In this document: positions 992 through 61,475 of the stretch, one piece after another
How positions within the stretch are numbered: the first letter of the stretch is position 1
How the letters are laid out: each line of letters opens with the position of its first letter
From: an uncultured Gammaproteobacteria bacterium
Lineage (GTDB): Bacteria > Pseudomonadota > Gammaproteobacteria > Pseudomonadales > Azotimanducaceae
Length of the DNA stretch: 64,000 nucleotides
Direction of reading: 5' to 3'
NCBI GenBank assembly: GCA_913050215.1
Contig: CAJXBG010000005.1
Coordinates: 1 to 64,000 of the forward strand
Translations under genes and position numbers: made by a program
The notes under the pieces: generated by a model
Told to the model about the DNA's origin: nothing
Seen by the model: only the letters and a program-made list of their open reading frames with translations
Databases searched by the model: none

Positions 992-1873
992 TTAAATTCT
1001 CCTAGCGTTTATCCGCTTCAGGCCTAAGCCTGCCAAGCCAAGTAGAAAGCACATGAGCGCAGCAGGTTCAGGAACAGCATGGGCAATTCCTTGGTACTGG
1101 ATACTAGTGTCGCTCCATGAGAATTGATTCAATTGAACCCCGGCTTCAGAATAATGGTAAATCGAGTTTCCGGAGGTAAGGTACATGTCACTGTTTCCAC
1201 CAGCGACCAGATTATCGACAGTAAATCCGGGATCGAAGAAGAAAGACTGAGCCAAATTGGCTGAGTCACGAATCGTCACACCGTTTTGCGCACCTGTATA
1301 GGCTGCATAAATACTATTCCCAAGAGAGGCCATTGAAATGCCTTGATAGTTTATTCGAGGATCAGGAAAAGCCATCTGTGCAAGTTGCACACCATTATCA
1401 TCATAGCGATAGATACTGTTACCGGAGGTTAGGTACATTTCGTTGCCATTTCCAGCGGCAATGTTGTCTGTTGCAAACCCCGGATCGAAAAAATTCCTTT
1501 GCGCCAGATTATTTGAATTTCGAACCGTTACACCATTTTGACTGCCAGAGTATGAGGTGAAGAAGTCTTCACCTGAAACAGCGATGCCGTCATAACTAAG
1601 GCCCGGGTTTCCCCATGTAAAGCTGTTCAGTTGCACTCCTGCGTCTGAGTAGTGGTAGATTGAATCTCCAGATGTGAGGAACATGTCGTTGTTACTACCT
1701 GCCGATATATTATCGACCGCAAAGCCAAGACTGAATGAAAAGGATTGAACCAGCGTATCTGCATCACGGACCGTCACTCCATTCTGGCTTCCCGTATAAG
1801 TTGTATAGATTTGTCCTGCGCTTGCGCTCAGAGAAAACAATCCAAAGAACAATAGTCCCATTATTTTTTTCAT
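992..1873 (-). CDS. PEP-CTERM sorting-domain protein with three tandem repeats
   Basis: This is a 293-residue secreted protein. Residues 1-19 are a Sec signal peptide ending ASA. Three copies of an ~83-residue module follow at about 22-97, 104-180 and 188-264. Each has a Y-x-G-[SA]-QNGVT[VI]R start, a DN-[IL]-x-AG turn, an [MF]-x-LTSG-x-SIY block and a GVQL block. Residues 267-293 are a textbook PEP-CTERM tail: VPEP, a hydrophobic stretch and a basic end (KRINARRI). Such tails are handled by exosortase (EpsH/XrtA) in EPS-producing Gram-negatives. The ATG at 1873 is preferred over an in-frame TTG at 1891 because GGA lies about 7 bases before it. Three short beta-rich repeats suggest an extracellular propeller-like or adhesive protein. 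Its partner and ligand are unknown. Confidence 0.9.
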   Translation of the reverse strand: MKKIMGLLFFGLFSLSASAGQIYTTYTGSQNGVTVRDADTLVQSFSFSLGFAVDNISAGSNNDMFLTSGDSIYHYSDAGVQLNSFTWGNPGLSYDGIAVSGEDFFTSYSGSQNGVTVRNSNNLAQRNFFDPGFATDNIAAGNGNEMYLTSGNSIYRYDDNGVQLAQMAFPDPRINYQGISMASLGNSIYAAYTGAQNGVTIRDSANLAQSFFFDPGFTVDNLVAGGNSDMYLTSGNSIYHYSEAGVQLNQFSWSDTSIQYQGIAHAVPEPAALMCFLLGLAGLGLKRINARRI

Positions 1874-2339
1874 ATTTTTGTCCAAAAACAATTATCAAAT
1901 TCATCAGGTTGTCGTCATGAGAAACTCAGGCGAGATTGCACTCAGCGGATGACGACTCGAACGATGTCACACATGCGACCATCGTCTTTACCTGAGCAAT
2001 ATTTGTGCCTAAAATAATTATCCATATAGATCAGCTACTTGGATGGTTTTTCAGCGCGGTCATTTTTGGACTGGGTGCATTTTATTGTTGGCGATCGCAA
2101 ATGCGGTTGCGGTTCGCAATACCGGGTCGGGATGCTGACGCCGGCTGTTTTTTCTGTCGCTGAATAGCGTTAAAATGTCCAACAGGAAACATAACGGCAG
2201 AGATCTAAACGCACGTGGGAAGCCCTAAAAAAGCCAAGATTTCTGCCGGTTTTACCGCAGAAAGAAGGAGGTCCCGCACTTCTGCTAAACATCAAGCACT
2301 GTTCAACATTAGATCAAGTTCAGACGCGAGGTCGCCACA
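1874..2339. other. Intergenic region between divergent genes
   Basis: About 466 bases separate the PEP-CTERM gene (leftward) from the small rightward gene at 2340. The only element identified with confidence is the sigma-54 promoter at 1995-2010, listed separately. No open frame here looks like a gene. Confidence 0.5.
1995..2010 (-). promoter_or_regulatory. Sigma-54 (-24/-12) promoter of the PEP-CTERM gene
   Basis: Read on the minus strand the site is AGGCACAAATATTGCT. This matches the RpoN consensus TGGCAC-N5-TTGC except for the first base, with exact GG-N10-GC spacing. It points at the PEP-CTERM gene and predicts a start about 12 bases downstream and a leader near 100 nt. PEP-CTERM genes are known to be controlled by RpoN with the PrsK/PrsR two-component system, so the context fits the motif. 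No enhancer site was identified. Confidence 0.65.
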
Positions 2340-2555
2340 ATGAGCCGTATTAAAAAATTTTTCCAACGTATCAATCGCGCCGCCACTGAAGTTGGCACAG
2401 AACATTTTGACGATGACAAAGATTGGGACGAACGTGTCAAGCTGCCGGCTTGGCAAACCGCTCGTCTGCGCGAACGCTACGAGCAAAAAAAAGCCCAACA
2501 GGCGGCAAAAAAACAGTCTAAAAAGCCAGAAAGCAGCGAAACGAAAACAGACTAA
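2340..2555 (+). CDS. Small charged hypothetical protein
   Basis: This is a 71-residue, very polar protein. The N-terminus is basic and amphipathic (MSRIKKFFQRINRA), the middle acidic (DDDKDWDER), and the Lys/Gln/Ala-rich tail looks disordered or helical. GAGG lies about 8 bases before the ATG. A longer frame on the other strand over the same bases has low-complexity Phe/Leu composition and no ribosome site, so this strand is preferred. No family was recognised. The gene is followed by an inverted repeat (TTGATCA 2584-2590, TGATCAA 2611-2617) with a T-run, and then a stronger bidirectional terminator. Confidence 0.6.
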   Translation: MSRIKKFFQRINRAATEVGTEHFDDDKDWDERVKLPAWQTARLRERYEQKKAQQAAKKQSKKPESSETKTD

Positions 2556-18414: not shown

Positions 18415-19929
18415 TCAGTCGGTCGCTTTTAGATCGGTATCAAGCATATTCTTCCCGAAACGCCTGCCCAGAAATTGTATTGTCATAAACAGAACAGCCA
18501 TCGCTAACAAAATAAGCCAAGGCGAATCGTATACCCCGGCACACAGAAAAGTCACAAAGGCCACACCTCCGGTTACCATCGCGTAATAAAACTGAGTTGA
18601 CACATGATCAATGTGCGGACAGTCGGCACCAATAGAAGCGAGTACGGTTGTGTCTGAGATGGGTGATGTGTGATCACCAAATAAGCCACCGCTCAGCACA
18701 GCACCAATGGTCATGTACAACGGCGCGTCAACGGCGACAGCCACAGGCACCGCCAACGTCATTAAAATCGCAAAAGTGCCCCAAGATGACCCAGTGGCTA
18801 TCGAGATAATAGCGCCCAGCACAAAGACAATCGCTGGTAACAACGCGGGATTCACATTCCCACCCACGAGGGTCGAAAGCACTTGCGCTGTACCGAGATC
18901 CTTAATCACCGAACTCAGCGACCAGGCTAGAATCAAAATGATGACCACAAAGACCATACTCTCAGCACCCCTGATAAACGTATTCAACGAATCGTTCATG
19001 GGTACGCTCTGATGTTTAAACATCAGATATGCACAAGCGATAGATGCAGACGCGTAAGCGATGGTCATGGTAGACCGAACATGAATACTTGTAAGTTCAT
19101 CGTTCATCGCATGCCATGCGAGCAAAACACCAATCAGGCCTAAGAGTATCGACAAGGGTACAACAAACAAAGAGAGCCGCGGCGGCACCGATGGGTCGTG
19201 ATCAGGCTCCGCAGCCTGACCCGGTGGATGCCGATCCTCAGAGAGGAAGTGCTGTTGAGCCTTCCCCATGGGGCCAAAATCACGTCCAGTAATGATAAAA
19301 AAGAGAACCGCTGACAGTGTAAGAATGGCGTAAAATTGAAAAGGCAGAACATTGATCAGTACCGAAAGCGCCGATTCTGTTAATCCTGCATCGCTATATG
19401 CCTGCTCTATCAAACCCATAATGTAAGCACCCCAGCCAATAAATGGGATCAATATACAAATTGGCGAAGCTGTAGAGTCTAGTATGTATGCCAACTTTTC
19501 CCTGCATATCTTGAGCTCGCGAAATATTGGTCGAAACAGCGGACCTATAATTAACGCATTTCCGGAATCTGTAAAAAAGATAGACATTCCCGAGGCCCAG
19601 CTAGCGAACTGTGCTTTTCTGGGACTGGATATAAAACGAGTCATTCCCCTCGCGAAAGCATGGGCACCACCAGAGACTTCGAGTAAACGGATGAACCCAC
19701 CAATTGCCATCATCGTAAAGATAATTTGAATGTTTGAGCCCACGGCTATCTGAACAAAAACGCGCTTTTCAATGAGGTCAAGTGTCGCGGCAAACGGATT
19801 GTAACCAACCAGAATCAAAGAACCGCTAAACACCCCGAGGCTAAGAGATACAATAATATTTCGGGTCCATATCGCCAATACAACGGTAAGCACCGGAGGT
19901 AGTAAAGAGAGAATGCCGTAACTATCCAT
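18415..19929 (-). CDS. Na+/H+ antiporter, NhaC family
   Basis: This 504-residue polytopic membrane protein has the NhaC pattern. It opens with LSLLPPVLTVVLAIWTRN, then GVFSGSL, a long cytosolic loop near 225-245, FTDSGNALIIGPLFRP, DSTASPICILIPFIGW, and the repeated block SSWGTFAILMTLA with GDHTSPISDTTVLAS near 395-430. Family members exchange Na+ for H+, or in some cases organic acids such as malate/lactate. Sodium homeostasis suits a marine host, but the exact cargo is inferred. It is convergent with the flavoprotein gene, with 1 base between their ends and no terminator visible. Confidence 0.9.
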   Translation of the reverse strand: MDSYGILSLLPPVLTVVLAIWTRNIIVSLSLGVFSGSLILVGYNPFAATLDLIEKRVFVQIAVGSNIQIIFTMMAIGGFIRLLEVSGGAHAFARGMTRFISSPRKAQFASWASGMSIFFTDSGNALIIGPLFRPIFRELKICREKLAYILDSTASPICILIPFIGWGAYIMGLIEQAYSDAGLTESALSVLINVLPFQFYAILTLSAVLFFIITGRDFGPMGKAQQHFLSEDRHPPGQAAEPDHDPSVPPRLSLFVVPLSILLGLIGVLLAWHAMNDELTSIHVRSTMTIAYASASIACAYLMFKHQSVPMNDSLNTFIRGAESMVFVVIILILAWSLSSVIKDLGTAQVLSTLVGGNVNPALLPAIVFVLGAIISIATGSSWGTFAILMTLAVPVAVAVDAPLYMTIGAVLSGGLFGDHTSPISDTTVLASIGADCPHIDHVSTQFYYAMVTGGVAFVTFLCAGVYDSPWLILLAMAVLFMTIQFLGRRFGKNMLDTDLKATD

Positions 19930-61312: not shown

Positions 61313-61475
61313 ACCACCTTATCCTCATAACCAGACTTTAACTGTCGGCTCTGGAATCTCACCAGATCTGCTTGTCCTTCTACCTTGGTAGAAGCGCCCG
61401 CGGGCTACACAACGATTACTACTCATTGCGATTACCGCCGGTGGGGACTTTCACCCCGCCCTGAGAATGGTCACA
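61313..61475 (-). ncRNA. FMN riboswitch (RFN element)
   Basis: Read leftward, the conserved RFN pieces occur in order: TCTCAGGGCGGGGTGAAAGT, CCCCACCGGCGGTAAT, AGCCCGCGGGCG, a variable hairpin built on CTTCTACC/GGTAGAAG, GCAGATCTGGTGAGATTCC, AGAGCCGACAGT and AGTCTGGTTATGAGGATAA. These match the FMN aptamer core that senses flavin mononucleotide. The downstream gene, ribH, is in the expected class. Exact ends are approximate. Confidence 0.95.

Follow-up and report, generated by a model that had tools for sequence, protein, structure and literature searches.

The window analysed here, a stretch of 64 kb, contains a PEP-CTERM gene that is separated by a long intergenic region from a divergent reading frame. 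The features of this locus, with their coordinates and strands, are as follows.

992–1873, minus strand: PEP-CTERM gene encoding 293 amino acid residues (ATG at 1873, stop codon at 992–994), with a signal-peptide-like start and three internal repeats
1013–1075, minus strand: putative PEP-CTERM sorting signal VPEPAALMCFLLGLAGLGLKR (TIGR02595)
1874–2339, no strand assigned: long intergenic region between the PEP-CTERM gene and a divergent frame of 71 residues (2340–2555, plus strand)
1984 (±1), minus strand: predicted transcription start
1995–2010, minus strand: predicted -24/-12 (sigma-54) promoter element AGGCACAAATATTGCT, with GG at 2009–2008 and GC at 1997–1996
2029–2041, plus strand: weak IHF-like site GATCAGCTACTTG, with two mismatches
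2168–2184, minus strand: candidate degenerate PrsR box TGTTGGACATTTTAACG, 156 nt upstream of the element

The window also carries an FMN riboswitch at 61315–61472 on the minus strand (93.9 bits).

The PEP-CTERM label given to the gene in the initial annotation holds, though only just. In a six-frame search the gene reached 19.5 bits with TIGR02595 against a cut-off of 16, but a scan of the whole protein gave 14.4 bits, which lies below that cut-off, and the Pfam model PF07589 fell just short with 20.6 bits versus 20.7. The C-terminal stretch VPEPAALMCFLLGLAGLGLKR is accompanied by a basic tail. The three repeats of the protein are each about 80 residues long, and it has next to no relatives. 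Indeed, at an E-value of 1e-10 it was matched in only one of the 205 other genomes of the family (206 including its own), namely G045, where the matches display 29–33% identity and cover parts of frames of about 800 residues. A wider scan of genome contigs yielded one match of 23%, in Terribacillus, and no match was found among phage records. Given the single, remote match within the family, orthologous footprinting of the promoter was dropped. A single-sequence AlphaFold2 model of the protein had a mean pLDDT of 43 and was left unused.

The -24/-12 element faces the PEP-CTERM gene. In AGGCACAAATATTGCT, which reads from 2010 to 1995 on the minus strand, the GG and GC are exactly ten bases apart (GG-N10-GC); this spacing had been noted previously, with the strand left unstated. 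The sigma-54 consensus employed for scoring was TGGCACGNNNNTTGCW; of its 12 specified positions AGGCACAAATATTGCT shares 10, and it lacks the T of TGG. Between the element and the ATG lie 121 nt. Sigma-54 transcripts conventionally start 12 nt after the GC, and counting from its C would place the start at 1984 (±1) and leave a leader of ∼111 nt. By itself the motif is not significant in 64 kb because seven places show two or fewer mismatches to the consensus versus 12.0 expected from shuffles, and three places retain the GG/GC with a score of at least 10. It is the place of the motif that is exceptional. When the 467-nt intergenic stretch 1874–2340 was subjected to dinucleotide shuffling and scored in the direction of the gene only, a score of 10 was reached in 54 of 4000 shuffles (1.4%). 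The pattern GGCAC-N5-TTGC occurs 51 times genome-wide versus 26 times for the reversed control pattern; the window site accounts for one of the 51 matches, and another precedes the PEP-CTERM gene on contig C85.

The genome to which the window belongs is a draft of 258 contigs (4.44 Mb, 98% complete) and contains eight PEP-CTERM genes over the cut-off, two of them cut by contig ends. A scan for the same motif before the other PEP-CTERM genes had been proposed, and its outcome was positive: a GG-N10-GC element scoring 9–11 of 12 precedes all six genes with readable upstream regions. Taken with the 10 of 12 consensus positions and the shuffles, these sister elements support the sigma-54 promoter of the initial annotation as probable.

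The survey of PEP-CTERM genes covered 38 genomes, including that of the window, and 18 of these carry such genes, at 112 places in all. Ninety-four places were taken into the promoter count, of which four were dropped as truncated to leave 90 usable. The remaining 18 comprised a hold-out set of 17 (one truncated, 16 usable) and a gene, G213:C44, which was excluded because only 4 bases separate its beginning from the end of the contig. The first in-frame ATG served as the start of each gene, and some leaders are therefore wrong. As computed directly from these upstream regions, the element is enriched before PEP-CTERM genes chiefly where PrsR is encoded: a score of at least 9 was observed for 43 of the 63 genes from PrsR-bearing genomes (4.6 expected from shuffles), as opposed to 5 of the 27 from genomes without PrsR (2.9 expected). 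Two of the latter five come from G132 and G062, each of which has one PEP-CTERM gene. Since both genes carry strong PrsR boxes, PrsR may be missing only from these drafts, which are 86 and 92% complete, respectively.

The distribution of the regulators themselves was followed in 30 genomes, with PrsR over its cut-off in 11 and PrsK in 10. All 11 PrsR-bearing genomes contain PEP-CTERM genes, and the 12 genomes in which PEP-CTERM matches are lacking show neither PrsR nor PrsK. Seven of the 30, including G030 with its 19 places, have PEP-CTERM genes but no PrsR. G030 and G048, which belong to the same family, have 19 and 5 PEP-CTERM places, respectively, with no PrsR or PrsK, and at their examined PEP-CTERM genes no PrsR box was found. 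These two genomes depart from what was described in 2006 (PMC1569441) as universal among the Proteobacteria studied at that time. A gapped pattern combining box and promoter was judged too loose for use: it occurred at 11 places in the window's own genome versus 3 for the reversed control, and in PrsR-lacking genomes, too, its counts were above those of the control (12 versus 0 in G032 and 11 versus 2 in G214).

The initial annotation had placed the exosortase and regulatory system elsewhere in the genome, and its components were indeed located on other contigs. RpoN is encoded on C52 (472.8 bits, cut-off 277.35), PrsR on C233 (665.5 bits, cut-off 502.6), and PrsT on C9, where the frame together with its neighbors reaches 382.9 bits (cut-off 312.2). 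A PrsT-like frame below the cut-off lies just upstream of the PEP-CTERM gene on C227. Besides PrsR, seven other places in the genome match the PrsR central domain at 240 bits or more. On C233 (L014), PrsR adjoins a WecG/TagA-type glycosyltransferase. There is one exosortase, on C217, which scores 165.3 bits over the EpsH cut-off of 105.55; it is nearest to XrtA, yet its 188.5 bits lie below the XrtA cut-off of 208. The adjoining frame resembles the XrtA-associated tyrosine autokinase with 141.1 bits, again below the respective cut-off. Of the genes named in the initial annotation, rpoN and prsR were found and xrtA is represented by an XrtA-like exosortase. The PrsK component of the proposed PrsK/PrsR control was not borne out: no match over the cut-off was observed in this 258-contig draft, where at 98% completeness absence is not certain, although PrsK is present in 10 of the 11 PrsR-bearing genomes, all but this one. 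The gene may have been lost, may lie in an assembly gap, or may have been replaced by that for another kinase. In tetranucleotide composition the PrsR contig resembles the window, with a distance of 0.164 as compared with a mean of 0.149 and a maximum of 0.170 for 4-kb pieces of the window itself. The exosortase contig does so less, with a distance of 0.240; a 3-kb piece of C6 gives 0.224.

The activator site was defined by a Gibbs search of the 130 nt preceding the elements of 41 promoters (PrsR-bearing genomes, element score of at least 9, window excluded). The resulting motif, TGTCGAaaATTTTTACA, is consistent with motif 1 as published, which has TTTACA at its end. When each promoter was removed from its own matrix before scoring, 35 of the 41 reached 9 bits and 34 reached 15 bits. 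Within the window's own genome a strong box (15.5–20.2 bits) is found at four of six PEP-CTERM genes, and at the PEP-CTERM gene on C145 the element, of score 9, is not accompanied by a box (-0.3 bits). Within 130 nt of the window element there is no good PrsR box, the best match being 1.6 bits. The candidate TGTTGGACATTTTAACG reaches 10.5 bits at 156 nt upstream of the element. A box as good was produced by 97 of 4000 shuffles of the intergenic region, and an element and a box both as good by 2 of 4000. A match of 14.5 bits inside the transporter gene at 18415–19929 (at 19586–19570) illustrates the scores that can arise by chance and calls for caution with the 10.5-bit candidate. Across the whole window, the box consensus with three mismatches occurs at chance level (251 found, 255 expected). 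At six other promoters the best box lies at 146–215 nt, and four of these six also have a copy of at least 15 bits within 130 nt. A short inverted repeat, GTC-N7-GAC, which lies ∼46 nt upstream of the element, was weighed by eye as a possible PrsR box and rejected, as the right half of the motif is absent and the repeat lies outside the four best matrix matches of the stretch. When the 46 nt preceding the window element were compared with 34 sister promoters, the similarity was matched by 291 of 5000 shuffles, and the likeness is thus only suggestive. Of the RpoN and PrsR control initially proposed, then, RpoN is present in the genome and the PrsR step is weak. On the basis of its sequence context, control of the gene by PrsR is nonetheless likely.

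The sister promoters display a distinct geometry. For 32 promoters of PrsR-bearing genomes, with boxes taken from a plain pattern and two promoters (186 and 215 nt) left out, the nearest box lies 60–64 nt from the element in 18 cases, 71–74 nt in eight, and 82–84 nt in three, with single cases at 28, 94, and 95 nt and none at 65–70 or 75–81 nt. Examples of loci with this spacing are L002, L006, L060, L078, L104, and L118. None of 10,000 sets with a jitter of at most 6 nt equaled the periodicity (R of 0.78 near 11 bp), and none of 10,000 did so when each genome contributed a single value for each spacer length (26 values). The distances between PrsR box and promoter are thus quantised in helical steps, a post hoc result to which shared descent of the promoters may contribute. 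Among the 13 hold-out genes from PrsR-bearing genomes, part of a small set of 16 usable genes, five have a strong box, four at 60–61 nt and one at 186 nt, and all five have an element of score 9–10. One further gene of this group shows an element of score 10 but lacks a box, and none of the three hold-out genes from a PrsR-lacking genome has either element or box. At 156 nt, the window candidate would fit the phase of a 10.5-bp step and not that of an 11-bp step.

The spacers of these promoters contain sites resembling the IHF consensus, for which WATCAANNNNTTR was used. Within the 60 nt preceding the element it occurs exactly in 9 of 34 promoters (0.3 expected) and with at most one mismatch in 23 of 34 (4.2 expected), and in 14 of 34 the site lies in one register. 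Counted among the 34 are the lone PEP-CTERM genes of G132 and G062. Because the idea arose from viewing the promoter sequences and the test was therefore post hoc, flank controls and the hold-out set were run. Downstream of the element no site was found in 34 promoters (3.9 expected), and upstream of the box there was one in 31 (1.8 expected); in the hold-out set three of the five promoters with a strong box have a site with at most one mismatch, two of them in the common register. The weak site in the window, GATCAGCTACTTG, lies in the register of the sister sites and was equaled in 242 of 5000 shuffles. IHF commonly binds between the other elements of RpoN promoters, according to the accessible part of PMC7962754.

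The promoter class into which the window site fits was described by Haft and colleagues in 2006 as motif 1, a spacer, and motif 2 before PEP-CTERM genes, with motif 1 ending in TTTACA. The accessible text of that paper (PMC1569441) gives a motif spacing of 32–92 nt, a spacer of 62.8 nt with a deviation of 10.6, and a distance from element to start codon of 23–221 with a mean of 71. The window locus resembles this class in having a sigma-54 element before a PEP-CTERM gene, a long intergenic region, and a distance of 121 nt that falls within the range; likewise, PrsR and PrsT are encoded in the genome, and the sister promoters have a motif 1 ending in TTTACA. It differs in that a good copy of motif 1 is absent at the published 32–92 nt upstream of motif 2, the degenerate copy being at 156 nt, and in that PrsK was not found in the draft genome. 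Also unlike the class as described in that text, some related genomes have many PEP-CTERM genes with no PrsR and no motifs. The terms "phasing," "periodic," and IHF do not appear in the accessible text of the 2006 paper. No paper joining "PEP-CTERM" with the word "IHF" was found in the accessible literature searched, which consisted mostly of papers outside subscription; "PEP-CTERM" and "integration host factor" do occur together in three papers. No earlier description of the helical steps or the IHF sites was found in the literature searched, and both may have been described elsewhere.

Two experimental systems bear on the statement in the initial annotation that control of PEP-CTERM genes by PrsK/PrsR is established. 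In the available portion of PMC9850573, pepA of Aquincola tertiaricarbonis is RpoN1-dependent with a mapped start, and, as in the window, a GG/GC element precedes a PEP-CTERM gene, there with a predicted enhancer upstream. The pepA promoter was measured, whereas that of the window is known from its sequence, and the feature considered here as common to the two proteins is the sorting signal. In Desulfovibrio vulgaris, five predicted PEP-CTERM targets of the response regulator DVUA0057 were enriched in an in vitro DNA-affinity assay; the accessible part of the paper gives no validated binding motif for this regulator (PMC3333781). Like PrsR, DVUA0057 is predicted to control PEP-CTERM genes; the PrsR box of the window gene is a degenerate candidate. 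As far as these sources extend, one RpoN-dependent pepA and five in vitro targets lend support to such control, and "established" is too strong a term.

Very probably, the site at 2010–1995 is a genuine promoter of the RpoN (sigma-54) type before the gene for a surface-sorted protein. The reading that we favor, with a probability of roughly 0.6, is that of an RpoN promoter of a single PEP-CTERM gene of the class described in 2006, most likely activated by PrsR, with the product going to the XrtA-like exosortase. The activator step is its weak point: the usual near PrsR box appears to be missing, and the candidate copy is unusually weak and distant. It is here that another enhancer-binding protein could act on a real sigma-54 promoter whose PrsR box was lost or never present. 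The empty 130 nt would be explained in this manner, the C145 gene provides a second case of an element with no box, and the seven further matches to the PrsR central domain supply possible activators. Against this stand the distal PrsR-like box upstream of the window element and the strong boxes at four of the six promoters of the same genome; moreover, an unsystematic look revealed no other site common to the window and C145 genes. Such a substitution is judged unlikely. More improbable still is an accidental GG/GC match, with transcription of the gene driven by a sigma-70-type promoter. The unenriched level of matches in the window and the missing T of TGG would fit an accident, and a sigma-70-like site matching at 9 of 12 positions does occur on the gene strand at 1918–1891. 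Such sites are present at shuffle frequency (three found, 2.8 expected), however, and a start from this one would produce a leader no longer than about ten nucleotides, whereas the sigma-54 element is reached in 1.4% of shuffles and is joined by five sister promoters elsewhere in the genome.

According to the favored reading of an RpoN promoter activated by PrsR, the sigma-54 RNA polymerase would bind at 2010–1995 and stay closed. An enhancer-binding protein bound upstream, most likely the PrsR encoded on C233, would open the complex by way of a DNA loop, possibly assisted by an IHF-type bend. Given transcription from this site, which we infer from the element and its surroundings, the product would be exported and then processed by the XrtA-like exosortase. 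A more tentative proposal is that PrsR-type promoters in general consist of a box on one face of the helix (in steps of ∼10.5–11 bp), an IHF bend, and the sigma-54 element, and that the window gene has been rewired, its proximal box having been lost and its control taken over by the distal box or by another activator.

The window promoter is an ordinary member of the class known since 2006, and its activator site is atypical. It exemplifies a PEP-CTERM promoter with a PrsR box that decayed, moved, or was replaced. The difference between PrsR-bearing and PrsR-lacking relatives links the promoter class to this regulator, and the helical steps together with the IHF consensus make the mechanism of PEP-CTERM activation directly testable. 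If the rewired arrangement is true, the PEP-CTERM genes of one cell would be under more than one signal.
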